Positions 2,512-21,779 of a stretch of DNA of 64,000 bases are shown piece after piece (position 1 is the stretch's first letter; each line of letters begins with the position of its first letter). The DNA is taken from the NCBI RefSeq assembly GCF_000941055.1, contig NZ_CP007202.1, positions 3,165,001-3,229,000 of the forward strand. Direction: 5' to 3'. The notes beneath the pieces were generated by a model. It made no database searches. It saw only the letters and a program-made list of their open reading frames with translations, and had not been told where the DNA came from. The position numbers were made by a program, and so were the translations under genes. The DNA is from Siansivirga zeaxanthinifaciens CC-SAMT-1 (GTDB lineage Bacteria > Bacteroidota > Bacteroidia > Flavobacteriales > Flavobacteriaceae).

Positions 2512-2570
2512 CACCATTTTAACCGGTTAAAAACAATTTATAAACCCTGGAGTTAGGCTAAAATAAAAAG

Positions 2571-2608
2571 AGTTAAAAGTAAAAGTTAAAAGTTAAAAGT
2601 TAAAAGTT
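2571..2608 (+). repeat. Short tandem repeat, unit AGTTAAA
   Basis: Between rpmI and rplT the heptamer AGTTAAA is repeated about five times in a row; the second copy lacks one T. The tract starts 59 bases after the rpmI stop and ends 67 bases before the rplT start, so copy-number change would alter the spacing in the L35-L20 leader without touching a coding region. No function is evident. Confidence 0.8.
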
Positions 2609-2675
2609 TCTAAAAACTAATTACCTAAAACTAGCAACTAAATTAACCGCCTACTACAAAAACACATTTAAAATT

Positions 2676-3020: not shown

Positions 3021-3060
3021 GGCGTTTTCGCCTATTGTAAAACATATTATTCGCTTAATA

Positions 3061-3094
3061 AAAAATCCGATTCTTAATTGAATCGGATTTTTTT
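3061..3094. terminator. Bidirectional intrinsic terminator
   Basis: A 13-bp perfect stem (AAAAATCCGATTC / GAATCGGATTTTT, 6-base loop) with T-runs on both strands. It lies between the converging rplT (+) and YjbQ-family (-) genes and can serve both. Confidence 0.9.
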
Positions 3095-3101
3095 ATTTTT
3101 A

Positions 3102-3524: not shown

Positions 3525-3565
3525 TTTTAAAACTATTTTATAATTAGTTTTAATTCCTTTAAATT

Positions 3566-4825: not shown

Positions 4826-4889
4826 AAACCGAAAGGTAATCAAAAAATATATGGAGTTAAAATGCTTTTAGAAAATATTAAACTAAATT

Positions 4890-6431: not shown

Positions 6432-6531
6432 GAATGCGAATGTAACTAAAAAGAAACTGTTTTTAAACAGAAAAAGATTTTAGATTGTTAACTAGTAATC
6501 AACAATTTAACTGTTAATAACTTAAAAAAAT

Positions 6532-6540
6532 TGTGAATAA
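6532..6540 (-). promoter_or_regulatory. Possible DnaA box upstream of dnaB
   Basis: On the minus strand the sequence reads TTATTCACA, a full match to the bacterial DnaA-box consensus TTATNCACA. It lies about 100 bases before the dnaB start codon. A second, one-mismatch copy (TTATTAACA) occurs at 6512-6520. In AT-rich DNA such 9-mers can arise by chance, so confidence is modest. Confidence 0.35.
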
Positions 6541-6545
6541 CAATA

Positions 6546-6577
6546 AAAAAATCTGAAACTTTTGATTTCAGATTTTT
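6546..6577 (-). terminator. Intrinsic terminator of accA
   Basis: 11-bp stem AAAATCTGAAA / TTTCAGATTTT with a 7-base loop, 22 bases beyond the accA stop in the direction of accA transcription, followed by a T-rich tract. Confidence 0.85.
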
Positions 6578-6598
6578 AAATGCTAGGATATTAAAGAT

Positions 6599-7552
6599 TT
6601 AGTCTTTAAATACACCCATTTGCATGTATTTATCCATACGCTTAGCAACCAAATCCTTTGGTGATAAGTTTTTTAAAATCTCGTAATGTTTAATAATGGC
6701 ATTACTAACCGATTCAAAAGTTTTTTCTCTGTCTCTATGAGCGCCACCTAGTGGTTCTTTAATAATTTCATCAACCAACTTTAATTTTTTCATATCGCTG
6801 GCTGTTAATTTTAAAGCTTCTGCCGCTTGTTCTTTAAACTCCCAACTATGCCATAAAATTGATGAACATGATTCTGGAGAAATAACAGAGTACCAAGTAT
6901 TTTCTAACATTAAAACAACATCGCCTACACCAATACCTAAGGCCCCACCTGACGCTCCTTCACCTATAACAATAGTAATTACAGGCACTTTTAAGCGAGT
7001 CATTTCTAAAATATTTCTTGCTATAGCCTCACCTTGTCCGCGCTCTTCGGCTTCAAGACCCGGATAAGCTCCTGGGGTATCCAATAAAGTTACAATTGGA
7101 ATTCCAAATTTCTCGGCAGATTTCATTAATCGCAAAGCTTTTCTGTAACCTTCTGGATTTGCCATACCAAAATTTCTATATTGGCGTGTCTTGGTATTAT
7201 ACCCTTTTTGCTGACCAATAAACATGAAACTTTGATCGCCAATTTTACCTAAACCACCAATCATGGCTTTATCATCTTTAAAACTTCTATCGCCGTGTAA
7301 TTCTAAAAAAGTTTCACCGCAAATAGCTCTAATATGATCTAATGTATATGGTCTGTTTGGATGACGAGATAATTGAACGCGCTGCCAAGGAGTTAAATTT
7401 TTATATATCTCCTTTTGAGTCTCTTTTAACTTTTTCTCAATTTGCTCGCAAGTTTTAGAAACATCAACATCGCTTTCTTTACCAATGATTTCACATTTTT
7501 GAAGCTGATCTTCTAGTTCTTTTATAGGGAGTTCAAATTCTAAATATTCCAT
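6599..7552 (-). CDS. accA: Acetyl-CoA carboxylase carboxyltransferase subunit alpha
   Basis: With AccD it transfers the carboxyl group from biotin to acetyl-CoA, giving malonyl-CoA for fatty acid synthesis. 317 residues, standard AccA length, with N-terminal helical region, [28 protein letters not shown], the crotonase-fold [15 protein letters not shown] oxyanion region and C-terminal LGGAHRD. Single gene with its own terminator; the promoter region shares a 29-bp block with that of tgt (see 7590-7618). Confidence 0.97.
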
Positions 7553-7589
7553 AAGAATTTTGTTTTTGCTTATTAATTTTCTTAGCCTA

Positions 7590-7618
7590 CAAACCTACAT
7601 ATTTTTTAATTTTAAAAT
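7590..7618 (-). promoter_or_regulatory. Promoter-like block upstream of accA, near-identical to one upstream of tgt
   Basis: The 29 bases here match 10833-10861 at 28 of 29 positions. Read on the minus strand both give an A/T block followed by ATnTGTAGGTTTG (n = A here, T at tgt), ending 37 bases before the accA start and 23 before the tgt start. The core resembles a weak TAnnTTTG -7 element, so these are best read as a shared promoter; this is inference. Confidence 0.45.
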
Positions 7619-7693
7619 AAGAAAAAAATACATTTATTGGTTATTAGCTCATATTATGCAAAGGTAACGATTCTATTAAAAACAAAAATAAAT

Positions 7694-8605
7694 TTAACGA
7701 ACAGCTTTTGCTAAACGTCTGTTTTTTAGAGTTTTTATATTCTTTAATATACCATTTGCAAGCACTGTTACAATAATTATTAGGGCACCAAAATAAAAAT
7801 TAGGCCCCATATGTTCCTTATCTGGAAACAACAAAATAGCCATTATTATACCGTAAACTGGCTCTAAATTGTAGGTTAATACTACTGTGTAAGGACTTAA
7901 AAAGCGCATTACATGGATAGATGCAATATAAGCGTAAGTTGTACAAATAGAAGCTAGAATTAATAAGTATCCTAAATCGGGTAAACTAATATTAAAGAAC
8001 GCTCTTGAAAACCCTTTATCACTAAAAAGTAAAAAAATTGAAACGAATAATACACCACTTAAAAATTCGTAAAAAGCAATTACTGTTGCTTGATGCTTTT
8101 TTATGAAAGTACCATTTAATACTGCAAATAATGAAGATAAAAATGCAGAGGTTATTCCTAAAATAATTCCATTGATGTATTTCAATTCTCCTCTACTTAT
8201 TACGTATACCCCAATAATAACTATAACGCCAAATAAAATTTCATACCAAAGAATGCGTCTTTTATAAAATATAGGTTCAATAAATGAAGCAAAAAAAGCT
8301 CCTGTAGAAAACATGGTTAAAGTAATGGATATATTAGATTCGTCTATAGCACCAAAAAAGGTAATCCAATGTAAAGCAATTATAATTCCTGCTATGGCAA
8401 GTCGAACAAGCTCTTTGGGTCTTATGCTTAATTTAACCTTAGCAAACTTTATATAAATAAGCATTAAAGAGGAGGCAAATACCATACGAAACCAAACTAA
8501 AGGAATTGCCGAAATGATTATTAATTCTCCTAAAATAGCTGTAAAACCAGCTATAAAAACCAACAAATGAAGGTGTAAGTAATTTTTAATTTTATCGTTT
8601 AGCAT
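7694..8605 (-). CDS. EamA/DMT-family transporter
   Basis: 303-residue integral membrane protein with about ten hydrophobic segments arranged as two EamA repeats (residues about 10-140 and 150-290), the drug/metabolite transporter fold used for amino-acid or metabolite efflux; substrate unknown. Its start overlaps the end of the LptF/G-type gene by 14 bases, so translation is probably coupled. Last gene of the tgt operon; no obvious hairpin follows. Confidence 0.85.
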   Translation of the reverse strand: MLNDKIKNYLHLHLLVFIAGFTAILGELIIISAIPLVWFRMVFASSLMLIYIKFAKVKLSIRPKELVRLAIAGIIIALHWITFFGAIDESNISITLTMFSTGAFFASFIEPIFYKRRILWYEILFGVIVIIGVYVISRGELKYINGIILGITSAFLSSLFAVLNGTFIKKHQATVIAFYEFLSGVLFVSIFLLFSDKGFSRAFFNISLPDLGYLLILASICTTYAYIASIHVMRFLSPYTVVLTYNLEPVYGIIMAILLFPDKEHMGPNFYFGALIIIVTVLANGILKNIKTLKNRRLAKAVR

Positions 8606-9674
8606 TTTGCAGAAGATAAATAGCTAAAATACCAAAAAGCACATTCGGGAACCAAACAGCAATAAGCGGCGGAAAATCGGATTGTTCTGCCATCACACCA
8701 AACACCTTATCAAAAAAAACAAAAACCATGGCAATGCTTATACCTAAGGCCAAGTTAACGCCCATACCACCACGCCGTTTCATAGAGGATACTGCAACAG
8801 CTATTATGGTTAAGATAAATACAGAAACCGGAAGACTCCATTTTTTATACAAGACCAATTTAAAACGCCCTACATTAGAAGACCCTAAAGCTTCTTCTTT
8901 AGCTATAAAACGTTTTAATTCGCCATACATTTTTGTTTCGGCTGCAAAAATAACTGGAATTAAATCTTCTGCTTCAAAAGCAAATGTTGTATCCTTTTTT
9001 CTTTCAATCTCAATTATATCTTTGTCTTTACCAACTTTTCGCTTAACATAGTTTGTAAGTTCATAAATGCTATCTTCATCTCTGTATCGAATTTCGTTAG
9101 CAGAAATTTTGTAGGTTAGTTTATTAGCTTCAAAATGTTCTAAAGTAAAGTTTCTTCCAATTTTATTCTTTACATCATAACTGCTTACATAAACAATCTC
9201 GTTATCATTTATTTGTCTAAATACATTGTTATCTGCACCCTCATAGGCATTTTTTCCTTTTTTTAAATATTTATAGGAGAAGTCGTTAAACCCTTCACTT
9301 GCCTTTGGTGCTAAAAACATACCTAAAACAAGGGCTAGTATGGCAACAATAGTTGCGCCTATTAAGTAAGGTCTTAAAAACCTGGAGAATGAAACACCAG
9401 AACTTAAAAAAGCAATAATCTCGGTATTATTAGCGAGTTTGGAAGTAAACCAAATTACCGATAAGAATAAAAATAAAGGAAAAAGTATGTGTGCAAAATA
9501 AATTGTAAAATCTAACAAATAAAGCAATACTTCATTTAATGGCACTTCATTTTCGAGAATTCTACCTATTTTTTCGGCTAAATGAACTGTAATTCCAATA
9601 GGAATAAACAGTAGTAACATCATAAAAAATGTAAACAAATAACGCTTTAATATGTACCAATCAAGTATTTTCAT
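8592..9674 (-). CDS. LptF/LptG (YjgP/YjgQ) family permease
   Basis: 360-residue inner-membrane subunit of the LptBFG transporter that extracts lipopolysaccharide and passes it toward LptC/LptA. N-terminal ILDWYILKRYLFTFFMM and two further membrane helices, a periplasmic beta-rich region (about residues 120-260), and three C-terminal helices (LVLYKKWSLPVSVFILTIIAVAV and onward). Flavobacteria usually encode such permeases in two separate places; I cannot tell F from G. Starts 4 bases after the tgt stop and overlaps the next gene, an operon arrangement. Confidence 0.88.
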   Translation of the reverse strand: MKILDWYILKRYLFTFFMMLLLFIPIGITVHLAEKIGRILENEVPLNEVLLYLLDFTIYFAHILFPLFLFLSVIWFTSKLANNTEIIAFLSSGVSFSRFLRPYLIGATIVAILALVLGMFLAPKASEGFNDFSYKYLKKGKNAYEGADNNVFRQINDNEIVYVSSYDVKNKIGRNFTLEHFEANKLTYKISANEIRYRDEDSIYELTNYVKRKVGKDKDIIEIERKKDTTFAFEAEDLIPVIFAAETKMYGELKRFIAKEEALGSSNVGRFKLVLYKKWSLPVSVFILTIIAVAVSSMKRRGGMGVNLALGISIAMVFVFFDKVFGVMAEQSDFPPLIAVWFPNVLFGILAIYLLQNAKR

Positions 9675-9678
9675 TTTA

Positions 9679-10809
9679 TTACAAACGATTATCCATTTGT
9701 TTTACCATTTTATTTTTCCAGGCTGCAAAATCACCTGCTAATATATGCTTTCTGGCTTCTCTAACTAACCACAAATAAAATCCTAAATTATGAATAGTTG
9801 CAATTTGTTTTCCTAATAATTCATTTACCGTAAATAAATGCCTTAAATAAGCCTTTGAATATTCGGTATCTACAAATGTTATACCCATCTCATCTATTGG
9901 AGAGAAATCGGCTTCCCATTTTTTATTTTTAATATTAATAGAACCGTGGGCCGTAAACAACATTCCATTTCTGGCATTTCGGGTTGGCATTACACAGTCA
10001 AACATATCTACACCTAACGCAATATTCTCTAAAATATTGATTGGTGTACCAACTCCCATTAAATATCGTGGCTTATCTTCTGGTAAAATTTCACAAACAA
10101 CATCGGTCATGGCATACATTTCTTCAGCAGGCTCACCCACCGAAAGTCCACCAATAGCATTTCCAACAGCACCAGCATTTGCGATATATTCGGCAGATTG
10201 TTTACGTAAATCTTTATATGTACTTCCTTGAACTATTGGAAAAAATGCTTGGTTATAATCGTATGTTAAAGGTGTTTTTTCTAAATGATTAATACATCTG
10301 TCTAACCAACGATGCGTCATATGCATCGATCGTTTTGCATAATTATAATCGCAAGGATATGGTGTACATTCATCGAAAGCCATAATAATATCGGCCCCAA
10401 TTTTTCGCTGTATTTCCATCACATTTTCTGGGGTAAACACATGGTAACTCCCATCTATATGCGATTTAAACTTTACACCTTCTTCTTTTATTTTTCTATT
10501 TGAAGACAAGGAATATACTTGATACCCTCCAGAATCGGTTAAAATATTTCTATCCCAATTCATAAATTTATGAAGACCACCCGCCTTTTCGATAATAGTT
10601 GTTTGAGGTCTTAAATATAAATGGTAGGTATTTCCTAATATAATATCTGGATTTATCACCTCCTTCAACTCACGTTGGTGCACACCTTTTACTGTAGCAA
10701 CAGTTCCCACAGGCATAAAAATTGGTGTTTCTATAACACCATGATCGGTGGTAATTTTTCCTGCTCTGGCTTTACTTTGTGAGTCTTTGGTTAATAATTC
10801 AAATTGCAT
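9679..10809 (-). CDS. tgt: tRNA-guanine transglycosylase (queuine tRNA-ribosyltransferase)
   Basis: Exchanges guanine-34 for the queuosine precursor preQ1 in GUN-anticodon tRNAs. 376 residues with intact active-site motifs: DSGGYQVYSL, IIMAFDECTPYP, AIGGLSVGEP and the nucleophile region GVDMFDCVMPTRNARNG. Odd point: the structural zinc site of classical bacterial Tgt, CxCxxC just before the SRAYLRHL-type helix, is absent. The aligned stretch reads EMGITFVDTEYS with Gly, Thr and Asp in place of the three Cys, while the later His (ATIHNLGFY) is retained. I believe this is a lineage feature rather than damage, since the rest is intact. First gene of an operon with the LptF/G permease and EamA transporter. 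Confidence 0.96.
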   Translation of the reverse strand: MQFELLTKDSQSKARAGKITTDHGVIETPIFMPVGTVATVKGVHQRELKEVINPDIILGNTYHLYLRPQTTIIEKAGGLHKFMNWDRNILTDSGGYQVYSLSSNRKIKEEGVKFKSHIDGSYHVFTPENVMEIQRKIGADIIMAFDECTPYPCDYNYAKRSMHMTHRWLDRCINHLEKTPLTYDYNQAFFPIVQGSTYKDLRKQSAEYIANAGAVGNAIGGLSVGEPAEEMYAMTDVVCEILPEDKPRYLMGVGTPINILENIALGVDMFDCVMPTRNARNGMLFTAHGSINIKNKKWEADFSPIDEMGITFVDTEYSKAYLRHLFTVNELLGKQIATIHNLGFYLWLVREARKHILAGDFAAWKNKMVKQMDNRL

Positions 10810-10832
10810 AATCCTGTTTAATCTTGAATTGG

Positions 10833-10861
10833 CAAACCTACAAATTTTTTAATTTTAAAAT
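10833..10861 (-). promoter_or_regulatory. Promoter-like block upstream of tgt
   Basis: Partner of the block at 7590-7618 (28 of 29 identical). On the minus strand it places AAATTTGTAGGTTTG 23 bases before the tgt ATG. Confidence 0.45.
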
Positions 10862-10989
10862 GAATTAGATTTCATTTAAATAAAGCCAATTTACCATAGA
10901 AAATAAATATTCGAAGAAATAAAACTATAATATAATTCTTTTGGCAACGTTTTTGAATGTATATAATTCAAATCTTAAAAATGAACATT

Positions 10990-11574
10990 ATGAAAAACCT
11001 ATTTTTTATGTTATTGGCCTTCTTTTTTATATCAACCTCTAGCTTTGCGCAGCAAAGCACCGGTTTTGGTATTAAAGCAGGTTTAAATTACAATGCTAAT
11101 GGCGATTATTTTGAATCTATTGGAGCAAATGCGAAAAATCCTGATAGAAATGTGGGCTACCATTTTGGCTTTTTTGGTAAAATTGGAAACGAGATTTATT
11201 TTAAGCCAGAATTAATGTATACCTCTACAAAAAGCGATTATGATAATGATAGCTTTAAAATGCAGAAACTAGATGCACCACTTTTGGTTGGTGTTAAAGT
11301 ATTAGGACCTATTAGTGTTTTTGGAGGCCCAGCGTTTCAATATATACTAGATACCGAATTTGATGGCATTAATATTAACGATGTTAAAAATGATTTTACC
11401 GTTGGTTTAAATTTTGGTATCGGGCTTAATTTTAACAAAGTTGGTATTGATTTAAGATACGAACGTGGTTTTAGCGATAATGAAGCTACCTTTTTAGGAA
11501 ATAATGGTATAGGTGTTAGTAGAATTGACACAAGACCAAATCAACTTATTTTGAGTTTATCTTTATTGTTATAA
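10990..11574 (+). CDS. Outer-membrane beta-barrel protein (PorT-like family)
   Basis: 194 residues from the third in-frame ATG (10990), which gives a proper signal peptide MKNLFFMLLAFFFISTSSFA; the earlier ATGs at 10957 and 10981 would place odd residues ahead of it. The mature part has alternating hydrophobic strands typical of an eight-stranded barrel (TGFGIKAGLNYNANG, GYHFGFFGKIG, FKPELMYTSTK, FTVGLNFGIGLNFNKVGIDLRYERGFSD) and ends in LILSLSLLL, a C-terminal strand. Such barrels are common in Bacteroidota; ligand or partner unknown. Monocistronic, with a strong terminator right after the stop. Confidence 0.82.
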   Translation: MKNLFFMLLAFFFISTSSFAQQSTGFGIKAGLNYNANGDYFESIGANAKNPDRNVGYHFGFFGKIGNEIYFKPELMYTSTKSDYDNDSFKMQKLDAPLLVGVKVLGPISVFGGPAFQYILDTEFDGININDVKNDFTVGLNFGIGLNFNKVGIDLRYERGFSDNEATFLGNNGIGVSRIDTRPNQLILSLSLLL

Positions 11575-11576
11575 AT

Positions 11577-11604
11577 AAAAAAGCCACTTTAAAGTGGCTT
11601 TTTT
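11577..11604. terminator. Bidirectional intrinsic terminator
   Basis: Perfect 13-bp inverted repeat AAAAAGCCACTTT / AAAGTGGCTTTTT with T-runs on both strands, between the converging beta-barrel gene and the FKBP lipoprotein gene. Confidence 0.9.
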
Positions 11605-11606
11605 GG

Positions 11607-12656
11607 TTACTTATTATAATTAACTTTTATGTTCTTGTCTCTGTAATCTGGGATACCATCATTATTAGAATCTATAATAGTAACTGTTTTGATGGTTATA
11701 ATACCAGCACTTTCAGTTCTGCTAATCTCAAATTCACCTTCAACTAAAACTGGTTCTTGTTCGTTTAGGTTGGTATTAAAGGTATAGGTTGTTGGCTTGA
11801 GTTCGTTTATAGTAAGTACATTATCGCCGTCATCATCAGAATCAACATAATCTGCGAAACCGTTTCCATCGGTATCATCGTCAGTTTCATCTTTTAGGTT
11901 GGTAAAATTAACAATAAACTCACCATCGCCATTTAAATCTTCATAGTAAGATGGAATACCATCGCCATCATGATCGAAAACAGATGTTTGCAATAATTCA
12001 AATTTAAATGCTAGAGGTGCATACGAACTCACTCCCGCTGGTGCATTTGAAAAATAAGCTAATCCTGAAGGAATAAACATAATTCCTAAACCACTATTTA
12101 TGTAATCTGTAGTACCATCTCCGTTAACTACAAAACCATCAGAAGTATTAAACTTAGGGATAACACGTCTCCAACCAGGAATAACTCCAGTTAAATCTAT
12201 TGGGTTTCTATCTGGATAATATTTAAAATCAAAAATGTAATTTTCTAAAGAAAATCCTTCATATAGAATTTGAATTCTATCTCCTATAGTAGGCTTATTT
12301 TCACCCCCACCTTGATTTAAATTTAAAACATAATAGTCGTAGGTTGTATTTTCGTAATCTACAGTATACTTAACTACTTTAGATATTAACAATTCATGTC
12401 CATCGGGCACTGAAGCACTACCCGTAAGTTGGTTAATTACTATATCGTTAATACCTGCATTGGGTTTAGCAGCCTCAATTTCGGCAGCATTGTAATAATG
12501 ACTCGACAAGTATTTTATAATAGAATCGTTATCTGCTTCTTGTTGCTCTGTTCTATCCCTTAACTCTATGGTTACGTTTGGAGCATCATCTTTCTTACAA
12601 GACGCCAAACTTAATCCCAAACAAACTAACAATAGGCCTATTTTATTCAATTTCAT
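11607..12656 (-). CDS. FKBP-type peptidyl-prolyl isomerase lipoprotein with Asp-rich repeats
   Basis: 349 residues. Lipoprotein signal MKLNKIGLLLVCLGLSLASC with lipidated Cys at 20. Residues about 130-230 form an FKBP domain (IGDRIQILYEGFSLENYIFD, VIPGWRRVIPKF, GLGIMFIPSGLAYFSN, PLAFKFELLQ), an extracytoplasmic proline isomerase that may assist folding of exported proteins. Flavobacteria have related lipoproteins (for example GldI of the gliding machinery); this one is not clearly GldI. After the FKBP domain come calcium-binding-type Asp repeats (DHDGDGIPSYYEDLNGDGE, DTDGNGFADYVDSDDDGDN and DSNNDGIPDYRD near the end). Monocistronic. Confidence 0.85.
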   Translation of the reverse strand: MKLNKIGLLLVCLGLSLASCKKDDAPNVTIELRDRTEQQEADNDSIIKYLSSHYYNAAEIEAAKPNAGINDIVINQLTGSASVPDGHELLISKVVKYTVDYENTTYDYYVLNLNQGGGENKPTIGDRIQILYEGFSLENYIFDFKYYPDRNPIDLTGVIPGWRRVIPKFNTSDGFVVNGDGTTDYINSGLGIMFIPSGLAYFSNAPAGVSSYAPLAFKFELLQTSVFDHDGDGIPSYYEDLNGDGEFIVNFTNLKDETDDDTDGNGFADYVDSDDDGDNVLTINELKPTTYTFNTNLNEQEPVLVEGEFEISRTESAGIITIKTVTIIDSNNDGIPDYRDKNIKVNYNK

Positions 12657-12823
12657 TTACTGTTTTTTTTATTTTTATTTTTTGCACATCTTAAAAAACA
12701 AATAAACATCTAATTAGATTTTTTGTTTTCAAATGCTACAATAATGCTTATTTTTGAGGCTGCAAGATACAATTTAAATACAATCTTGTGCAATAACATT
12801 AACGTAGTTTTTTCAATAATTAT

Positions 12824-13207
12824 ATGCGAATAGACAAATATTTATGGTGTGTTAGATATTTTAAAACCAGAAACATTGCAACAACTGCATGTAAAAAAGG
12901 TCACGTTCGTATTAACCAAGAAGTTGTAAAACCCAGCCGAGAGGTTTATGCTTTAGATATAATTGAATTAAGAAAAGACCAAATTAACTACAAACTGAAA
13001 GTGAATGATATTCCAGAAAGTAGAGTTGGTGCTAAACTTGTTGATATTTACAGAACAGACATTACCCCTAAAGAACAATTTGAAGCGAAAGAACTTTTAA
13101 AATATTCTCAAGATTATTATAGAAAAAAAGGTGTTGGCAGACCTACGAAAAAAGATAGACGAGATATTGATGATTTTAAAGATGAAACGTCTATAGATGA
13201 TATTTAA
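12824..13207 (+). CDS. S4-domain RNA-binding protein (Hsp15-like)
   Basis: 127 residues. The N terminus MRIDKYLWCVRYFKTRNIA followed by GHVRINQEVVKPSREV is a canonical S4 RNA-binding domain; the basic tail (RKKGVGRPTKKDRRDID) resembles Hsp15, the heat-shock protein that rescues 50S subunits carrying nascent chains. Single domain, no enzymatic part, so not a pseudouridine synthase. About 100 bases separate it from the phosphoribosyltransferase on the same strand. Confidence 0.85.
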   Translation: MRIDKYLWCVRYFKTRNIATTACKKGHVRINQEVVKPSREVYALDIIELRKDQINYKLKVNDIPESRVGAKLVDIYRTDITPKEQFEAKELLKYSQDYYRKKGVGRPTKKDRRDIDDFKDETSIDDI

Positions 13208-13308
13208 CAACTTACTGTAATTGTATATAGATGATTTGTCCGCTATAAAAAACACAATAAACAAATAAAATTGAGTAATTTTAAATTTTAATACAACACC
13301 ATACTATT

Positions 13309-13812
13309 ATGAATGTTACAAATAATGTGATATTAAACCACGAAGAAATTAATAATAAAATAAGACGCATTGCTTTTCAAATTTTAGAGAGCAACGTAGA
13401 CGAAAACGAAGTGGTTTTAGCCGGTATCGATAGTAATGGCTACATTTTTGCAAAAAAACTTAAAACTACTCTGCAGAAAATTTCAGATATAAACCCTATA
13501 CTTTGTAAAGTTAGTATTAACAAAAAACAACCTTGGGATCCTATTAGTACTTCAATTCCTGAAACAGAATATGCTAACAAATCTCTAGTTCTTGTTGATG
13601 ATGTTTTAAATTCTGGAACTACTTTAATTTACGGGGTTAAACATTTTTTAAATGTCCCATTAAAGCAATTTAAAACAGCTGTATTGGTTAATAGAAATCA
13701 CAAAAAATATCCTGTTAAAGCCGATTTTAAAGGCATTTCACTTTCTACATCCTTACATGAGCATGTAAATGTTATTTTAGATGGTAAAAAATTTGAAGCT
13801 ATTTTAGAATAA
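13309..13812 (+). CDS. Phosphoribosyltransferase-family protein (PyrR-like)
   Basis: 167 residues with the type I PRTase PRPP-binding motif LVLVDDVLNSGTTL at about 107-120 and an N-terminal region NEVVLAGIDSNGYIFAKKL like that of PyrR. No pyr genes adjoin, so a regulatory role in pyrimidine expression cannot be inferred. Its 3' end overlaps the converging aroK by 9 bases. Confidence 0.82.
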   Translation: MNVTNNVILNHEEINNKIRRIAFQILESNVDENEVVLAGIDSNGYIFAKKLKTTLQKISDINPILCKVSINKKQPWDPISTSIPETEYANKSLVLVDDVLNSGTTLIYGVKHFLNVPLKQFKTAVLVNRNHKKYPVKADFKGISLSTSLHEHVNVILDGKKFEAILE

Positions 13813-14325
13813 TTTTAAAACTAAATCTTCAATTATTTCAGTTTCAGTTTTATTATCGGTAGATACCGTTATATTGGCTTGAGAATAAAATTGATTGCGT
13901 TCAAAAAGATGTTTACCAATAAACTCTGTAAGTAATTCATCTGTTTCAATATGAGCTATTAACGGTCGCTTACTTTTCTCTTTATTTAGTCTGGTTACTA
14001 AGGTTGGAATCGACGCTTTTAAATAAATACTTTTTGCATGTTTAGCTTCTAAAATAAGCGACATATTATTATTATAACATGGGGTTCCTCCTCCTAGCGA
14101 CACTATTAAATTAGTTTTGTTTTCTAAAATATGCATTAAATATTTAGTTTCTGCCTTTCTAAAATAAATTTCACCTTTACTTTTAAAAATATCACTTACG
14201 GTAGTTTTTTCTTCATTTTCAATATAATCGTCTAGGTCTAAAAAATCATAATTTAGTTTTTTTGACAAAATCCTCCCTAAAGTAGACTTCCCTGAAGCCA
14301 TATATCCAATTAAAATTAAAATCAT
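13804..14325 (-). CDS. aroK: Shikimate kinase
   Basis: Phosphorylates shikimate in the aromatic amino-acid pathway. 173 residues from the ATG at 14325, where MILILIGYMASGKSTLGRIL places the P-loop at the usual N-terminal position; an in-frame extension of 19 codons upstream is not family-like. Other motifs: FLDLDDYIE (substrate Asp), GEIYFRKAE, VSLGGGTPCY and KRPLI in the lid. Monocistronic; converges on and overlaps the PRTase gene. Confidence 0.94.
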   Translation of the reverse strand: MILILIGYMASGKSTLGRILSKKLNYDFLDLDDYIENEEKTTVSDIFKSKGEIYFRKAETKYLMHILENKTNLIVSLGGGTPCYNNNMSLILEAKHAKSIYLKASIPTLVTRLNKEKSKRPLIAHIETDELLTEFIGKHLFERNQFYSQANITVSTDNKTETEIIEDLVLKLF

Positions 14326-14402
14326 TTTTAGCGCTATAAATTGATTATTAAAAACATACCATTTCTTCGTGCAAAAAAACAAAAAAATCTTTTAAAAAAG
14401 TG

Positions 14403-14432
14403 TTGTTTTATTAAAAATACATATTATATTTG
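14403..14432 (+). promoter_or_regulatory. Promoter of first tRNA-Lys gene
   Basis: TATATTTG at 14425-14432 is an exact Bacteroidota -7 element (TAnnTTTG). A TTG at 14403-14405 lies 19 bases upstream, the expected place of the -33 element. Followed 38 bases later by the tRNA. Confidence 0.75.
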
Positions 14433-14470
14433 CACCCCGTTACGGAAACGTAATAATTACTAAAAATAAT

Positions 14471-14543
14471 GACCTGGTAGCTCAGCTGGTAGAGCATTTC
14501 ACTTTTAATGAAAGGGTCCTGGGTTCGAATCCCAGCCCGGTCA
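14471..14543 (+). tRNA. tRNA-Lys (anticodon TTT), copy 1
   Basis: 73-base cloverleaf read by eye: 7-bp acceptor, D arm GCTC/GAGC, anticodon arm TTTCA-CTTTTAA-TGAAA (anticodon TTT), T arm CTGGG-TTCGAAT-CCCAG, discriminator A. CCA is not encoded. Acceptor position 5-68 is a T-C mismatch (GACCTGG against CCCGGTC), present identically in copy 2. Confidence 0.96.
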
Positions 14544-14550
14544 CTATTTA

Positions 14551-14590
14551 AAACCTTGCTAATCTGCAAAAAATTAGCAAGGTTTATTAT
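14551..14590 (+). terminator. Terminator after tRNA-Lys copy 1
   Basis: 13-bp stem AAACCTTGCTAAT / ATTAGCAAGGTTT followed by TATTATTTT, so the two tRNA-Lys genes are separate transcription units. Confidence 0.8.
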
Positions 14591-14646
14591 TTTAATGTTA
14601 CAGAAATTTTATTTGAAAACATTATTTTATTTTAAGTAATTAACCT

Positions 14647-14654
14647 TATATTTG
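14647..14654 (+). promoter_or_regulatory. -7 element of second tRNA-Lys gene
   Basis: Exact TATATTTG followed by GCAACCCG, closely resembling TATATTTGCACCCCG before copy 1; the tRNA begins 27 bases later. No good -33 match at standard spacing. Confidence 0.65.
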
Positions 14655-14680
14655 CAACCCGTAAAAAAGGAAGCAATAAC

Positions 14681-14753
14681 GACCTGGTAGCTCAGCTGGT
14701 AGAGCATTTCACTTTTAATGAAAGGGTCCTGGGTTCGAATCCCAGCCCGGTCA
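14681..14753 (+). tRNA. tRNA-Lys (anticodon TTT), copy 2
   Basis: Identical to copy 1 over all 73 bases, including the acceptor mismatch, but with its own promoter and terminator. Confidence 0.96.
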
Positions 14754-14755
14754 CA

Positions 14756-14786
14756 AAAAAAGTTAAGCGTATCGCTTAACTTTTTT
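14756..14786 (+). terminator. Terminator between tRNA-Lys copy 2 and tRNA-Leu
   Basis: 13-bp stem AAAAAGTTAAGCG / CGCTTAACTTTTT with a 3-base loop and T-run. Confidence 0.85.
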
Positions 14787-14810
14787 AATTTAAAATAAAA
14801 TCTTTTTATT

Positions 14811-14895
14811 GCGCACGTGGCGGAATTGGTAGACGCGCCAGCTTGAGGGGCTGGTATTCGCTTAGAATGTGGAAGTTCGAGTCTTCTCGTGCGCA
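14811..14895 (+). tRNA. tRNA-Leu (anticodon GAG)
   Basis: 85-base class II tRNA: acceptor GCGCACG / CGTGCGC, anticodon arm CCAGC-TTGAGGG-GCTGG (anticodon GAG), a long variable arm and discriminator A. CCA not encoded. It starts only 25 bases after the preceding terminator, and no TAnnTTTG element is seen there, so it may depend on read-through. Confidence 0.95.
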
Positions 14896-15233
14896 CTTTT
14901 TTTAAGTATACTATATCACTAATTTACCTTTATCTTATAATTAGTATAAACATTATTCAATTAAAGTATACCCTAATTACTGTACTTATAAAGCTTATTT
15001 TCCATTAAGCTTTAATTCTTTCTAAAACTTACAAAGTCTATTAATTTAAAATAGTTACTTTTTTAATTAAATATAACAAACACTTAAGCGACTAATTAAA
15101 CCGAATATTGTAAAATTAAACACATATTAACAATCAAATTAATAACTAAAAATAAAATTTGAAAAATAGTTAGCAATAACTGAAGCATTTTATTTGGATA
15201 TTTGTATTTTTGTTTAATTAAATTAAAAAATCC
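14896..15233. other. AT-rich intergenic region upstream of the carH-like gene
   Basis: 338 bases with no supportable gene. It holds an 8-bp inverted repeat AAAGCTTA-8-TAAGCTTT (14991-15014), two AAGTATAC copies and, at the right end, the promoter of the MerR-family gene. No terminator is seen after the tRNA-Leu. Confidence 0.6.
15205..15217 (+). promoter_or_regulatory. Promoter -7 element and half-site of the carH-like gene
   Basis: TATTTTTG (15205-15212) matches TAnnTTTG exactly and lies 21 bases before the start codon. It overlaps TTGTTTAA (15210-15217), which equals 8 bases of the inverted-repeat arms at the crtI promoter (16146-16177). This suggests autoregulation by the encoded regulator; inference. 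Confidence 0.5.
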
Positions 15234-16133
15234 ATGAACAATATTAAAGTTGATTTTAGTATTAAAGACTTAGAACACCTTACTGGAATAAAAGCGCATA
15301 CCATACGAATTTGGGAAAAACGCTATAATTTACTAAGTCCTAATAGAACAGATACTAATATAAGAACCTATAATATTGAAAGTTTTCAAAAACTATTAAA
15401 CATATCTTATCTAAACAATAATGGATATAAAATTTCAAAAATAGCCAGTCTGAAAGAAGAAGAAATTCCTATAAAGGTTAGAGAAATAGCATCACAAAAC
15501 AAAGTTGAAAATCATGCTATTAATGCCTTTAAAATGTCTATGATTAATTTTGATCAGGCCCTATTTTATAACACATACAACTCGCTTACCGAAAGCAAAA
15601 CATTTAGCGAAATATTCTACACGGTTTTTATACCTTTATTAGAGGACATTGGTTTATTATGGCAGACCGATACCATTACACCTGCTCACGAACATTTTTT
15701 ATCTGTTCATATTAAGCAGAAAATTCTTCTTAATATAGAAAAAATTCAACTTTTAGACCCCAAACCAAATACAAAAACCTTTGTTCTATTTTTACCGGAT
15801 AGCGAAATTCATGATATAGGTTTGCTTTTTGTTAATTACCAATTAAGAAGTAAAGGATATCATACTATCTTTCTTGGTGAAAGTGTACCTATGAAAAGCT
15901 TGGTCGATTTACATAAGTTTTTTGACGAAATCACATTTTTATCTTATTTTACGATATATCCTGATGAAAATAATATAGATTCGTATTTAGAAGAATTTTA
16001 TACACTCCTCTTAAAAGAAAAAAATAGTAAATTGCTCTTGTTAGGTTATAGAATTTCAAGTTTAAAACCCGAAAATCTTCCAAAAAACATTAGCATTTTT
16101 ACCTCCATAGAAAATTTAGTTAAAGAAATATAA
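15234..16133 (+). CDS. MerR-family regulator with B12-binding domains (CarH/LitR-like)
   Basis: 299 residues. N-terminal MerR helix-turn-helix (IKDLEHLTGIKAHTIRIWEKRY, residues about 8-75), a helical B12-binding cap, then a Rossmann-like cobalamin domain. It carries the CarH light-sensor signature W-x9-EH (WQTDTITPAHEH, about residue 143) and the lower-ligand motif as EIHDIG (ExHxxG rather than DxHxxG, His retained). In CarH proteins adenosylcobalamin holds a DNA-bound tetramer in the dark and light breaks it, derepressing carotenoid genes. Here the gene lies directly upstream of crtI-crtB-crtZ-crtY on the same strand, which supports that role. Strong family call; light response is inference. 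Confidence 0.88.
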   Translation: MNNIKVDFSIKDLEHLTGIKAHTIRIWEKRYNLLSPNRTDTNIRTYNIESFQKLLNISYLNNNGYKISKIASLKEEEIPIKVREIASQNKVENHAINAFKMSMINFDQALFYNTYNSLTESKTFSEIFYTVFIPLLEDIGLLWQTDTITPAHEHFLSVHIKQKILLNIEKIQLLDPKPNTKTFVLFLPDSEIHDIGLLFVNYQLRSKGYHTIFLGESVPMKSLVDLHKFFDEITFLSYFTIYPDENNIDSYLEEFYTLLLKEKNSKLLLLGYRISSLKPENLPKNISIFTSIENLVKEI

Positions 16134-16145: not shown

Positions 16146-16177
16146 TTGTTTAACTTTTATATATATTTGTTAAACAA
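16146..16177 (+). promoter_or_regulatory. crtI promoter with perfect 9-bp inverted repeat (predicted CarH operator)
   Basis: TTGTTTAAC (16146-16154) and GTTAAACAA (16169-16177) are exact inverted copies 14 bases apart. Between them lies the exact -7 element TATATTTG (16162-16169), and the right arm ends one base before the crtI ATG at 16179. A protein bound to both arms would cover the promoter. No T-run follows, so a carH terminator is a poorer explanation. Transcription from this element would give an almost leaderless crtI mRNA. Confidence 0.65.
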
Positions 16178-16178
16178 T

Positions 16179-17645
16179 ATGAAAAAAGAAATAATAATTA
16201 TCGGTTCAGGTTTTTCGTCTCTAGCAGCATCCTGCTATTTGGCGAAAGCAGGTTATAATGTAACTTTATTAGAAAAAAACAACACTATTGGAGGCAGAGC
16301 TCGACAATTAGTTAAAGACGGTTTTACTTTCGATATAGGTCCAACTTGGTATTGGATGCCCGATGTATTTGAACGCTTCTTCAATGATTTTGATAAAAAA
16401 CCTTCAGATTACTATAGTCTTGAAAAACTGAATCCCGCATACAGTGTTTATTTTGGAAAAAACGACTACATTACCATTGAAGATACATTAGCGAAAATTT
16501 CTGAAGCATTTGAAAAAGAAGAACCTGGAAGTTCAAAAAAACTAAACACCTTTATTGAAAAAGCTAAAAGCAACTACGATATAGCAATTAAAGATTTGGT
16601 TTATAACCCTGGCGTATCGCCTCTAGAATTGGTTACTATTGCTACTATAAAAAAATTAGACCAATTCTTTAGTAACATAAAAAGAGATGTTAGAAAAGAA
16701 TTTAAAAATGAAAGGTTAGTAAAAATTCTTGAATTTCCTGTTTTATTTTTAGGAGCAAAACCAAGCGATACACCTTCGTTTTATAGTTTTATGAATTATG
16801 CAGATTTTGGCCTTGGGACGTTTCATCCAAAAAAAGGCATGTATCAAGTTATCCTAGCGCTTGAAAATCTGGCAAAATCTCTTGGTGTTATTATAAAAAC
16901 AAATGCTCCCATAGAAAAAATTATCATTGAAAACAACGAAGTAAAAGGTGTTATTTCAAATGGAAAAACAATAAATACCAACATTGTTGTTAGTGGAGCC
17001 GATTACCATCATACCGAAACGTTATTAGATAAAACATACAGACAATATAGTGAGTCTTACTGGAGTAAAAAGACTTTTGCACCGTCATCACTACTATTTT
17101 ATGTAGGTTTCGATAAAAAGATTCAAAATGTAAATCATCACACATTATTTTTTGATGTAGATTTTGATGTACATGCAGAAGCCATATACGATACTCCAAA
17201 ATGGCCCGAAGAACCACTTTTTTACGCAAGTTTTCCTAGTATAACGGATGCTAACAGCGCCCCAGAAGGTAAAGAAGCTGGCATATTTTTAATACCCTTA
17301 GCGCCAGGATTAGAAGATACAGAAGCGTTAAGAGAAGCCTATTTTGAAAAAATTATGACACGTTTTGAGGCCTTAACTAGTCAAAATATTAAAAAACATG
17401 TTATATTTAAAGAGAGTTTTTGTATCAATGATTTTATAAAAGATTATAATTCTTACAAAGGAAACGCTTACGGAATGGCTAATACAATTACCCAAACCGC
17501 ATTTTTAAGACCCAAATTAAAAAGTAAAAAAGTTAAAGGTTTATTTTTTACAGGTCAATTAACAGTTCCTGGTCCCGGTGTACCACCATCATTAATTTCA
17601 GGAAAGTTAGTAGCAGATTTAGTAACCAAACACCATTCTTTATGA
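16179..17645 (+). CDS. crtI: Phytoene desaturase
   Basis: FAD enzyme that introduces four double bonds into phytoene to give lycopene. 488 residues from the ATG at 16179, which gives MKKEIIIIGSGFSSLAASCYLAKAGYNVTLLEKN with the dinucleotide-binding GxGxxx motif at residues 8-13; an ATG at 16146 lies upstream of the promoter and is unlikely. The C-terminal carotenoid-oxidase signature GLFFTGQLTVPGPGVPPSLISGK is present. Its TGA overlaps the ATG of crtB (ATGA), so the two are translationally coupled. Confidence 0.96.
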   Translation: MKKEIIIIGSGFSSLAASCYLAKAGYNVTLLEKNNTIGGRARQLVKDGFTFDIGPTWYWMPDVFERFFNDFDKKPSDYYSLEKLNPAYSVYFGKNDYITIEDTLAKISEAFEKEEPGSSKKLNTFIEKAKSNYDIAIKDLVYNPGVSPLELVTIATIKKLDQFFSNIKRDVRKEFKNERLVKILEFPVLFLGAKPSDTPSFYSFMNYADFGLGTFHPKKGMYQVILALENLAKSLGVIIKTNAPIEKIIIENNEVKGVISNGKTINTNIVVSGADYHHTETLLDKTYRQYSESYWSKKTFAPSSLLFYVGFDKKIQNVNHHTLFFDVDFDVHAEAIYDTPKWPEEPLFYASFPSITDANSAPEGKEAGIFLIPLAPGLEDTEALREAYFEKIMTRFEALTSQNIKKHVIFKESFCINDFIKDYNSYKGNAYGMANTITQTAFLRPKLKSKKVKGLFFTGQLTVPGPGVPPSLISGKLVADLVTKHHSL

Positions 17646-18481
17646 AAGCATTATTTGATACCGTTTCATACAATTGCAGCAAATTAGTAACAAAATCTTA
17701 TAGCACTTCATTTTCGCTTGCTACTAAAATGCTATACAAATCTATAAGACCCGATATTTACAACATTTACGGATTTGTTAGATTTGCTGATGAGATTGTA
17801 GATTCGTTTCATGATTTTAATAAAGAAGAACTACTTAACAAATTTGAAGCCGATTTAGAGCATGCTCTCGAACATAGGGTAAGTTTAAACCCTATTTTAA
17901 ATGCCTTCCAGTACACATACCATAAGAATAAAATAGAGAAAAGCATGGTCGATGCTTTTATGAAAAGTATGCGACTTGATTTACATAAAACTCAATACCT
18001 AACAAACGAAGAGTACAAAGAATACATTTACGGTTCTGCAGATGTTGTAGGACTTATGTGTTTAAAGGTTTTTGTGAATGGTGATAACGAAAAATTTGAA
18101 GCTTTAAAAGATACAGCCATGGCACTTGGTTCTGCTTTTCAAAAAGTTAACTTTTTAAGAGATTTAAAAGATGATTACGAAGGTTTAAACAGAACATATT
18201 TCCCGAATACCGATTTAAATAACCTTGATGAACAATCGAAACTAGATATTATTCAAGATATTGAAAAAGATTTTGAAAAAGGCTTAACAGGAATTAAAAA
18301 ATTACCAATTGAGGCTAAATTTGGTGTTTTTATGGCTTACAGATATTATCATCAATTGCTTAAAAAACTTAAAAAAACACCTGCTTTTAATATTAAAAAC
18401 ACCAGAATACGCGTTTCAAATCCTAAAAAAATAGAATTATTAATGCGTAGTTATGTAAAATATCAATTAAAATTAATGTAA
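17642..18481 (+). CDS. crtB: Phytoene synthase
   Basis: Condenses two GGPP to phytoene, the first committed carotenoid step. 279 residues with the squalene/phytoene synthase motifs SYSTSFSLATKML, the first Asp-rich motif RFADEIVDSF, and the second signature AFQKVNFLRDLKDDYEGLNRTYFP. Overlaps crtI by 4 bases and is followed 9 bases later by crtZ. GGPP synthase (crtE/ispA) is not in the window. Confidence 0.96.
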   Translation: MKALFDTVSYNCSKLVTKSYSTSFSLATKMLYKSIRPDIYNIYGFVRFADEIVDSFHDFNKEELLNKFEADLEHALEHRVSLNPILNAFQYTYHKNKIEKSMVDAFMKSMRLDLHKTQYLTNEEYKEYIYGSADVVGLMCLKVFVNGDNEKFEALKDTAMALGSAFQKVNFLRDLKDDYEGLNRTYFPNTDLNNLDEQSKLDIIQDIEKDFEKGLTGIKKLPIEAKFGVFMAYRYYHQLLKKLKKTPAFNIKNTRIRVSNPKKIELLMRSYVKYQLKLM

Positions 18482-18490: not shown

Positions 18491-18940
18491 ATGCAAACAC
18501 TATTATGGATAATCATTTTTTTAGCAACGTATTGTATCATGGAATTTATGGCGTGGTTTACGCATAAATACATTATGCATGGCTTTTTATGGAGTTTACA
18601 CAAAGACCATCACAAGAAAGATCACGATAGTTGGTTCGAAAGAAACGATGCTTTTTTTATATTTTATGCTATTGTTAGCATAGGTTGTTTTTTACTTTGG
18701 AAATACGACATATTTTGGGCTGGTTTACCCATTGGCGTTGGTATTTTTGCTTATGGATTATCATACTTTTTGGTACACGATATATTTATTCATCAACGTT
18801 TTAAATTATTTAGAAATGCCAATAACTGGTATGCTAAAGGTGTAAGACGTGCTCACAAAATGCACCACAAACATATTGGAAAAGAAGATGGCGAATGCTT
18901 TGGTATGTTGTTTGTTCCTTTTAAATACTTCAAGAAATAA
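18491..18940 (+). CDS. crtZ: Beta-carotene hydroxylase
   Basis: 149-residue membrane di-iron hydroxylase that adds the 3 and 3' hydroxyls, converting beta-carotene to zeaxanthin. The histidine clusters HKYIMHG, HKDHHKKDH, HDIFIHQR and HKMHHKH are all present, with hydrophobic segments between them. Sits between crtB and crtY with short spacers. Confidence 0.95.
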   Translation: MQTLLWIIIFLATYCIMEFMAWFTHKYIMHGFLWSLHKDHHKKDHDSWFERNDAFFIFYAIVSIGCFLLWKYDIFWAGLPIGVGIFAYGLSYFLVHDIFIHQRFKLFRNANNWYAKGVRRAHKMHHKHIGKEDGECFGMLFVPFKYFKK

Positions 18941-18955: not shown

Positions 18956-20113
18956 ATGATATCTAACACCCATTTCGATTATATCATTATTGGAAATGGA
19001 TTAGCAGGGCTTCAGTTGGCATTAAAAATGAGTGCTGATGTTTATTTTAAAGATAAACGCATCGCTTTAATAGATGGTTCTAACAAAAACACAAACGATA
19101 AAACCTGGAGTTTTTGGGAAGAAAACTCATCTCAATGGGATGCCATTACAACTAAAAGTTGGAATATTGCCAACATTTACACTTCCAAAAAACATATTTC
19201 ATTAGCACTTTGCCCCTATAAATATAAATCTATACGTTCTATAGATTTATATAATTATGCGAAATTCGAGCTTCAAAAACATTCTAATTTTTCATTTATA
19301 ATTGATTTTGTATGTACTACCACAGAAACAGAAGATAAAAAGGTATTAGTAGAAACTTCCTCTAATAAATTCACTGCCTCACATGTTTTTGATAGTAGAA
19401 TTCCAGAAGATTTTTTTCAAAAAAATAAAAATTACACACACATAATTCAACACTTTAAAGGCTATGTAATTAAAACAGAAGAAGCCTATTTTAATGACGA
19501 CACCTTCACGATGATGGATTATCGATTGAAAGATGGTGAACAAACCACATTTACCTATGTACTGCCTTTTTCAAAAACAGAAGCTTTAATAGAATTTACC
19601 TATTTTACAGAAAATTTAGTTAATGAAGCCGTTTATGATGCATTCATTGAAAAATACATAAAAAACTATCTTAAAATTGACTCGTATTTAATTATGGAAA
19701 CAGAAATAGGTCAAATTCCTATGACTAATTTCCCATTTGCAAGGTTCAATACAAAAAATATAACGAAAATAGGCACTGGTGGTGGATGGGTAAAGGGGTC
19801 TACGGGTTATTCTTTTAAACATACCGAAAAAAAAATATCTAAAATCATCGAAAATATTAAAGCTAACAACATACCAAGCGCTCACTTATTTAAGAAAAGG
19901 TATCGTTTTTATGACAAAATATTTTTAAAGGTTTTAAAAGATAACAACCACAAAGGCGAATGGATTTTTGAGCAATTTTACAACAAAAATTCTCCTCAAA
20001 ATATGTTTAAATTTCTTGATGAAGAATCTACTTTTTTTGATGAATTAAAAATTATGTATTCATTATTCTCTTTGCCTTTTATTAAAGCATTTTTCAAGAC
20101 CCTTTTCAAATAA
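18956..20113 (+). CDS. crtY: Lycopene beta-cyclase (CrtY type)
   Basis: 385-residue flavoprotein that closes both beta rings of lycopene. N-terminal dinucleotide-binding motif DYIIIGNGLAGLQLALKM, the cyclase motif DKTWSFWEE, and the later QIPMTNFPFA and GTGGGWVKGSTGYSFKH segments are typical of bacterial CrtY. Last gene of the crt operon; a hairpin follows 3 bases after the stop. Together CrtB, CrtI, CrtY and CrtZ suffice for zeaxanthin from GGPP. No blh or rhodopsin gene is nearby. Confidence 0.94.
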   Translation: MISNTHFDYIIIGNGLAGLQLALKMSADVYFKDKRIALIDGSNKNTNDKTWSFWEENSSQWDAITTKSWNIANIYTSKKHISLALCPYKYKSIRSIDLYNYAKFELQKHSNFSFIIDFVCTTTETEDKKVLVETSSNKFTASHVFDSRIPEDFFQKNKNYTHIIQHFKGYVIKTEEAYFNDDTFTMMDYRLKDGEQTTFTYVLPFSKTEALIEFTYFTENLVNEAVYDAFIEKYIKNYLKIDSYLIMETEIGQIPMTNFPFARFNTKNITKIGTGGGWVKGSTGYSFKHTEKKISKIIENIKANNIPSAHLFKKRYRFYDKIFLKVLKDNNHKGEWIFEQFYNKNSPQNMFKFLDEESTFFDELKIMYSLFSLPFIKAFFKTLFK

Positions 20114-21113: not shown

Positions 21114-21779
21114 TCATTTTTTTCGAATTTTAATTTCTTTTCTACTAAATTCTAGCTTATTTTCACATTGTAACTCGTTTAAAAGAATGTTTAGAGTCGG
21201 TCTTGAAGTACCAATTAAAGAAGCTATATCTTTTTGTGTATAAGGGTGTTGAATTATCTTGTCGCCAGTTTTTTCGCAGTTATAACCATAATCTAAATAT
21301 AACTCATCTAAAAACTCAAGAAGACGCGTTTTTGTATCCTTGAATAGTAATAATTGCAAACGCCTTTCTAATTTTTTAAATTTAAACCCTATAATTTTAT
21401 AAATTTTAAGGCTAAATGTTTGACTTTCTCTCATTAAACTGTGCATAGTATCAACTCCTATTGGGCATATACTTGTTTTATCGTCTAATGATTGTGCAAA
21501 TTCTTGTCTATTGAAATTTCCAAGTATTGCAGTTTCTCCGAAGAGTTCGCCTTTGGATAAAATAGCTTTTACTACTTCTTCACCACTTTCACTAAAGTAA
21601 CCAATTTTTACTTTTCCTTTTTCTATTAAATAGACTTTATTGGCTGTATCTTCCTCAAAATAAATATAATCTTTCTTTTTGTAAGCATTAAAGTCATGAT
21701 TTGACTTGTAAGATTTAAATTTATGAGGACAAAGTATTTTAAATAAGTCTACATCATCAAAAAACCAAATTGACTTCAT
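21114..21779 (-). CDS. Crp/Fnr-family transcription regulator
   Basis: 221 residues. N-terminal cyclic-nucleotide-binding-type beta roll (ANKVYLIEKGKVKIGYFSESGEEVV, KGELFGETAILGN), a dimerisation helix (FKFKKLERRLQLLLF) and a C-terminal winged helix with recognition segment YTQKDIASLIGTSRPTLNILLNEL. No Fnr-type N-terminal cysteine cluster; the ligand is unknown. The next gene downstream on the same strand is the duplicated lipoprotein, with a palindrome of Crp geometry in between, making that gene the prime target candidate. Confidence 0.9.
   Translation of the reverse strand: MKSIWFFDDVDLFKILCPHKFKSYKSNHDFNAYKKKDYIYFEEDTANKVYLIEKGKVKIGYFSESGEEVVKAILSKGELFGETAILGNFNRQEFAQSLDDKTSICPIGVDTMHSLMRESQTFSLKIYKIIGFKFKKLERRLQLLLFKDTKTRLLEFLDELYLDYGYNCEKTGDKIIQHPYTQKDIASLIGTSRPTLNILLNELQCENKLEFSRKEIKIRKK

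Follow-up and report, generated by a model that had tools for sequence, protein, structure and literature searches.

Predicted inverted operator of a CarH-type B12 photoreceptor upstream of the carotenoid operon of Siansivirga zeaxanthinifaciens and its relatives

In the 64,000-nucleotide stretch of Siansivirga zeaxanthinifaciens CC-SAMT-1 DNA analysed here (the window), a perfect inverted repeat lies between a gene for a MerR-type regulator and the carotenoid gene crtI, which raises the question whether this repeat is the operator through which the regulator controls the crt operon. An earlier note on this DNA had predicted a CarH operator, based on two exact inverted copies with a 14-base gap that enclose a -7 promoter box, and on an upstream gene for a MerR protein with B12-binding domains and a W-x9-EH signature. 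All parts of the repeat could be recovered (Table 1); the right arm GTTAAACAA begins with the final G of the box TATATTTG. The upstream gene likewise agrees with its description, as its product matches the Pfam families MerR_1 and B12-binding_2 and contains W-x9-EH as well as ExHxxG. The window contains 53 inverted repeats (3-23 in ten shuffles) that have perfect 9-nt arms and a spacer of 10-18 nt, nine of them with a spacer of 14. Since such repeats are common in this AT-rich window, the case rests on the comparison with relatives. For the operator motif itself, the window gave a single match at up to three mismatches, where the mean expected by chance is 0.38, and at 0 mismatches the motif is a single copy in its own 3.3-Mb genome.

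Table 1. Predicted operators, promoter boxes and genes of the carH-crtI locus (positions in the window).
Feature	Position	Strand	Remarks and basis
carH operator, TTGTTTAAT-N14-CATGAACAA	15210..15241	.	Overlaps carH start; sequence, conservation
Predicted carH -7 box, TATTTTTG	15205..15212	+	Overlaps left arm of carH operator
carH-type regulator gene	15234..16133	+	MerR DNA-binding domain, four-helix bundle, B12-type Rossmann domain
crtI operator, TTGTTTAAC-N14-GTTAAACAA, inverted repeat, 32 bp	16146..16177	.	Sequence, conservation
Left arm, TTGTTTAAC	16146..16154		Spacer between arms 14; sequence
Right arm, GTTAAACAA	16169..16177		Sequence
Left half-site TAAACA (TnnACA)	16147..16152	-	11-mer unit 16146-16156, fits nAnnTnnACAn
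Right half-site TAAACA (TnnACA)	16171..16176	+	11-mer unit 16167-16177
Predicted crtI -7 promoter box, TATATTTG	16162..16169	+	Inside operator, overlaps right arm; sequence
crtI, phytoene desaturase	16179..17645	+	First gene of predicted regulated operon; ORF, Pfam Amino_oxidase; name from the earlier note
crtB, phytoene synthase	17642..18481	+	Pfam SQS_PSY
crtZ, beta-carotene hydroxylase-like	18491..18940	+	Pfam FA_hydroxylase
crtY, lycopene cyclase	18956..20113	+	Pfam Lycopene_cycl

The putative crtI promoter is odd in form. The crtI ATG lies 9 nt past the -7 box, so that a transcript from the predicted promoter would be almost leaderless, and no -33 TTG is seen by eye at the usual spacing. 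TAnnTTTG is the flavobacterial -7 consensus, and a leaderless class makes up 5.5% of the mapped mRNAs in Flavobacterium psychrophilum (PMC9723704).

Conservation was assessed on 110 carH-crtI junctions, 30 from the family genome set and 80 others, the latter including Gaetbulibacter, Algibacter, Flaviramulus, Tamlana, Hyunsoonleella and Winogradskyella. Merging of identical intergenic sequences left 90 distinct loci, the window's own included, which are close relatives picked by similarity and no random sample. The conservation of both arms and of their spacing in relatives had been set beforehand as the test of the predicted operator, and this test was passed: the operator was found at up to three mismatches in 73 of the 90 loci, with the exact 14-bp spacer in all 73 and without any mismatch in 39. 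Pairwise identity amounted to 94% in the arms and 82% in the spacer, compared with 36.5% for the fourfold sites in the neighbouring crtI gene. Free variation is confined to spacer positions 14-16, operator positions 17-24 (the -7 box) are nearly invariant, and TTTT 3' of the left arm and TATATTT in the loop are conserved as well. Nine of the 17 loci without a crtI operator have a carH-crtI gap of 15 nt or less and retain the carH copy, and three Formosa-like loci miss the operator at both crtI and carH. The other five (L028, L054, L058, L074 and L092) belong to the 81 loci in which the carH-crtI gap is of ordinary size; they retain carH, and the loss of their operator has no visible reason. 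The Formosa-like loci (L101, L106 and L110) carry a different inverted repeat, TTTTGCTTATTTTTATAAGCGAAA in its L101 form, just before crtI.

The regulator can be described as a CarH-type protein, short of a certified CarH. It shows a sequence match to CarH in the PDB and combines the three-domain architecture of CarH (class I LitR) in one protein; its AlphaFold model (pLDDT 88.5, pTM 0.85) has full-length TtCarH (5c8e) as the top Foldseek match, with a TM score of 0.55 and 20% identity. The NCBIfam equivalog TransRegCarH was matched at 68 bits (E 7.7e-19), below the cut-off of 400 bits, which marks a distant homologue and is the reason for the name CarH-type. The residues W143, E153 and H154 of W-x9-EH and E191, H193 and G196 of ExHxxG, the motif with the lower His ligand, are invariant in 41 aligned proteins. 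Equally invariant is Gln144, which takes the place of His132 of TtCarH, the upper ligand of the light state; this histidine caps cobalt after light and is important for release (PMC10442372). A different photocycle is therefore possible for this regulator, judging from the substitution.

The half-sites of the repeat fit the published CarH unit, an 11-bp element nnnnTnnACAn (nAnnTnnACAn) that is arranged in tandem direct repeats (PMC9304148, PMC8156234). TnnACA is present in 145 of the 146 half-sites of the 73 crtI operators, including all 73 on the right side, and the full unit nAnnTnnACAn is found on the left side in 67 of 73. Tandem direct repeats are not found here; the two units are inverted and face each other at a fixed spacing of 21 bp, which leaves 10 bp between them. 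In a count of TTGTTTA-N-TAAACAA over 25 spacings, made on 12 genomes, 44 of the 128 matches fell on N18 alone, a sharp peak, although all spacings pooled show no excess over the control (118). A reading as direct repeats was rejected, as the direct version gave 214 matches versus 261 in the control, with no genome-wide excess. Overlap with the promoter, another trait of CarH operators, is seen at both crtI and carH, where the predicted TAnnTTTG box is inside or touches the operator.

The arrangement shares several traits with described operators. Those of Thermus thermophilus and Bacillus megaterium CarH have the same TnnACA half-sites, 11-bp units, promoter overlap and a MerR/B12 regulator of carotenoid genes (PMC9304148, PMC8156234), but contain three or four tandem direct repeats, whereas here two inverted units bracket the Bacteroidota TAnnTTTG box. 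The Myxococcus xanthus CarA/CarH operator also overlaps its promoter, and the proposed CarA site has two inverted repeats (PMC9304148, PMC8156234); it differs in its length of about 55 bp, its mixed repeats and its reach to the -35 element from the compact 32-bp palindrome at -7 in this study. The class II LitR proteins PplR and PmlR2 of Pseudomonas likewise control a light regulon with photolyase, folE and cryptochrome through two half-sites at fixed spacing. Their site is T(G/A)TACA-N12-TGTACA, with half-sites 18 bp apart and not 24 bp as here, and of the B12 region these proteins retain the four-helix part alone; they work with LOV partners (PMC9758184).

A second copy of the operator overlaps the start of carH itself. 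Its right half-site TGAACA (15235-15240) is spelled by carH codons 1-3, in which ATGAACA contains the TnnACA unit. The block TAnnTTTGTTTAA recurs upstream of carH in 76 of the 90 loci, TTGTTnA (n = T, C or G) starts 24 nt 5' of the carH ATG in 83, TAnnTTTG is fused to TTnA in 79, and the whole element TTGTTnA-N18-TnnACA (with the same n in TTGTTnA) is present in 84. Codon 2 of carH is AAC in 88 of the 90 loci, compared with 804 of 2318 (35%) for the other Asn codons of carH. Since AAC accounts for 88 of the 89 Asn codons at this position (binomial p 2e-39) and for at most 52 of 89 at any other conserved Asn site of the gene, the bias points to selection at the DNA level within a gene. Of the two arms, the -7 box contacts the left one at carH and the right one at crtI. 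Directly 5' of carH, genes for tRNA-Lys and tRNA-Leu are located (14681-14896), and by eye tRNA ends were noticed at an equivalent place in several relatives.

Across 397 genomes of the family, the number of exact operator sites was compared with the presence of carH. A close carH is present in 293 of these genomes, which together contain 770 exact sites (2.63 each; control 69, 0.24 each), and the 104 genomes without a close carH contain 47 (about 0.45 each; control 15), namely 14 sites in 32 genomes with only a distant homologue (0.44) and 33 sites in 72 genomes where none was found (0.46). Because such genome-wide counts depend on phylogeny, a comparison within genera was made, and in 18 mixed genera the members with carH had more sites in 14, fewer in two and equal numbers in two (sign test p 0.002). 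In genomes without carH, none of the 27 full crtI genes (28 genomes, the crtI fragment L264 being excluded) has the operator at up to four mismatches and spacings of 13-15. One genus offers a direct pair: G275, with carH, has a perfect crtI operator, and it is missing in G059, where no carH was found and crtI is 79% identical to that of the window. Nine further crtI genes from more distant carH genomes were inspected; five have a site at up to two mismatches, one of them with spacer 15, and in the other four crtI either follows directly behind carH (three) or the locus is Formosa-like (one). Exceptions occur in both directions. No exact site was found in 17 of the 293 carH genomes, and at least two sites are present in two of the 32 genomes with a distant homologue and in seven of the 72 with none found (for example four in G025, three in G252, seven in G078, an 81% complete assembly, and three in G179).

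Sites at other genes of the same genome suggest a wider set of targets. Two candidate sites with two mismatches, at 2132119 and 2140890, head respectively genes for a 151-aa protein, TIGR03643 and folE, and a tetR-headed run ending in three photolyase/cryptochrome-type genes. A third candidate, at 2560655, is located 48 nt from a fasciclin gene. Sites with three mismatches in this genome were dropped, as the threshold of up to three gives 22 sites versus 21 in the backwards control, and so was the one-mismatch site 143259 within a coding gene. The photolyase-type genes, folE, TIGR03643, TetR and both operator-like sites form a dense light-stress cluster (L130, C1:2126000-2144000, at 794-15745), in which genes for an ABC1 kinase, TspO and a glutathione peroxidase were also noticed by eye. 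The names TspO, glutathione peroxidase, SDR, ABC1 kinase, flavin reductase and two photolyases in this cluster, and mnmA, CIA30 and large secreted protein in relatives, were given by eye; other target names come from Pfam or NCBIfam.

In 20 relatives, 66 exact sites were found versus 6 in controls. The 53 sites away from crtI were read in 43 stretches (L150-L192) and their genes grouped by BLAST; five sites within coding genes (L160, L161, L169, L171 and L175) were not counted as targets. A fasciclin gene adjoining mnmA is preceded by a site in 13 of the 20 genomes and another fasciclin group in six, two genes of which also adjoin mnmA. Other targets are genes for mevalonate-kinase-like (three) and CrtW-like proteins (two), GLPGLI proteins (two) and a large secreted protein (four), where '-like' is used since the scores for CrtW (241 bits) and mevalonate kinase (63 bits) are below the respective NCBIfam cut-offs of 350 and 163. 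One site is located between proteorhodopsin and blh, and photolyase-cluster neighbours were recognized by eye in three stretches (L172, L188 and L189). With 8 far pairs excluded, 70 pairs of a site and a neighbouring gene remain. TAnnTTTG abuts the gene-facing arm in 21 of them and not in 49, and many of the latter involve a second tandem copy or mnmA, which faces the opposite way. The mnmA-adjoining fasciclin lipoproteins carry the operator around position 2501 of their stretches (L156, L164, L166, L168, L174, L177-L179, L181-L185, L187 and L190), some of them in two copies about 43 bp apart. The same predicted promoter-operator precedes genes for GLPGLI (Porph_ging) proteins at 2501 of L152 and L157. 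Algal FAS1 proteins (AstaP) bind carotenoids (PMC10147662), and by analogy the bacterial fasciclin lipoproteins may be carotenoid carriers.

A proteorhodopsin gene is present in 98 of the 397 family genomes; in S. zeaxanthinifaciens itself none was detected at E 1e-30. The upstream regions of 89 of the 98 were read, one other being too short. A site at up to three mismatches was found in 48 of 74 carH genomes and was missing in 26, and was found in none of three genomes with a distant homologue only. Of the 12 genomes lacking carH, two have such a site, and the assemblies of these two are incomplete (73% and 81%). Shuffled upstream regions gave a site in 2 of 890 cases. Spacing 14 was seen in 50 of the 89 regions, other inverted spacings in at most four, and the backwards control gave 0. 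Direct pairs peak at N11 (21/89) and N12 (18/89), matches that probably stem from palindromic right halves over the -7 box, as seen in examples.

Taken with the half-sites of the CarH unit, the kept arms and spacing, the copy on carH and the scarcity of sites in genomes without a close carH support the CarH operator predicted by the earlier note, and its single site is, on this comparison, a member of a predicted regulon with a new operator geometry. We consider it very probable that the inverted repeat is the dark-state operator of the adjacent CarH-type B12 photoreceptor with a wide light regulon. Motif, spacing, conservation, site scarcity without carH, regulon and cofactor residues were all read from sequence, and from them we infer binding, dark repression and dependence on B12 and light. 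By analogy with the published CarH model (PMC9304148, PMC8156234), adenosylcobalamin-loaded CarH would in the dark occupy both half-sites, which are 21 bp or two helical turns apart and thus on one DNA face. The bound protein would cover the -7 box, so that RNA polymerase would be unable to start crtI-B-Z-Y, until light breaks the cofactor, CarH releases the DNA and the operon is transcribed. CarH would bind the equivalent site on its own gene too, and the shared operator would place the photolyase/folE genes under one switch with those for fasciclin and, in relatives, with those for isoprenoids and proteorhodopsin. To the broader proposal we give even chances, namely that in Flavobacteriaceae a B12-based photoreceptor of the CarH type is a master light switch and directly represses in the dark the genes for proteorhodopsin and retinal along with those for carotenoids, isoprenoids, photolyases and fasciclins (the last perhaps carotenoid-binding), using the new inverted operator geometry and a photocycle without the upper histidine. 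If this is true, phototrophy would depend both on light colour and on vitamin B12.

The conserved block could in principle be just an unusual promoter, with an extended -7 box and a fixed start region but no regulator site. The succession of TAnnTTTG and a TTnAAC-like sequence at both crtI and carH and the conserved TTTT 3' of the left arm would fit such a promoter. However, the box overlaps the right arm at crtI and the left arm at carH, where moreover the right half-site falls within codons 1-3; copies without an arm-abutting box exist, such as the upstream tandem copies at fasciclin genes and the sites of the photolyase cluster in S. zeaxanthinifaciens; and the block is missing from all 27 crtI genes of carH-less genomes, so that this explanation is considered very improbable. 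Still closer to negligible is the probability that the repeat works at the RNA level, by forming a hairpin that covers the start codon of crtI. Its arms can pair, and in 43 of 73 loci they finish 1 nt 5' of the ATG, but 23 of 657 pair cells are broken compared with only two compensated, pair-keeping double changes, for which reason the hairpin was rejected; the same repeat is also found 7-71 nt upstream of the start of other genes, and a hairpin leaves the conserved loop TATATTT unexplained.

Binding of the site by some other regulator that travels with carH, for instance a TetR or Crp/Fnr protein encoded elsewhere in S. zeaxanthinifaciens, is suggested by the tetR gene that heads the photolyase cluster directly after a candidate operator and by a Crp/Fnr-type gene (Pfam) downstream of the crt operon (21114-21779, minus strand). 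We regard this as quite improbable, given that the half-sites fit the CarH unit, that 84 of the 90 loci have the site on the carH gene too and that the number of sites tracks the presence of carH. Even with CarH as the binding protein, it could act as an activator, or as a B12 or redox sensor without a true light switch. MerR proteins often activate, and the missing usual -33 element at crtI and the replacement of His132 by Gln144 are in line with such a role. Both repression and activation are described for MerR proteins (PMC8156234). On the other hand, the operator overlies or adjoins the -7 box at crtI, at carH and in the 21 site-gene pairs mentioned above, the W, E and lower-His ligands are invariant and many targets are light genes, which makes an activator or a non-light sensor unlikely.

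Returning to the reading as a CarH-type dark-state operator, a system of this kind is already known; as far as the searched literature shows, the operator geometry, the self-site in the start codon of carH and the link to proteorhodopsin are new. No such operator or regulon is described among the matches listed, consisting of open-access titles and the beginnings of abstracts, for CarH/LitR in Bacteroidota and for proteorhodopsin regulation. In the passages available from a study of light induction in Chryseobacterium, car/lit genes are stated not to be found (PMC7064467), and those from a 2013 paper leave the regulation of proteorhodopsin in Dokdonia and flavobacteria open ('further work is needed', PMC3587595). 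With a named operator and regulator, this control becomes directly testable. A shared site before genes for light harvesting and for the repair of light damage may indicate a common light switch of related marine bacteria. If true, the supply of vitamin B12 would be tied to marine light use, Bacteroidota genetics would gain a native B12-based light switch, and the grammar of CarH operators would be widened from tandem to inverted repeats; in addition, bacterial fasciclin proteins are pointed to as possible carotenoid carriers.

A more distant CarH-like family with 33-39% identity (L202-L209) was also noticed. W-x9-EH and ExHxxG are present in all eight members read, and six of these eight are located within about 2.3 kb of crtI. 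In two of the eight genomes (G309 and G252), crtI is accompanied by a related repeat with a spacer of 15 and changed arms, GTTGAACAA and GTTAGACAA. These distant homologues may represent a sister class with a shifted half-site preference.
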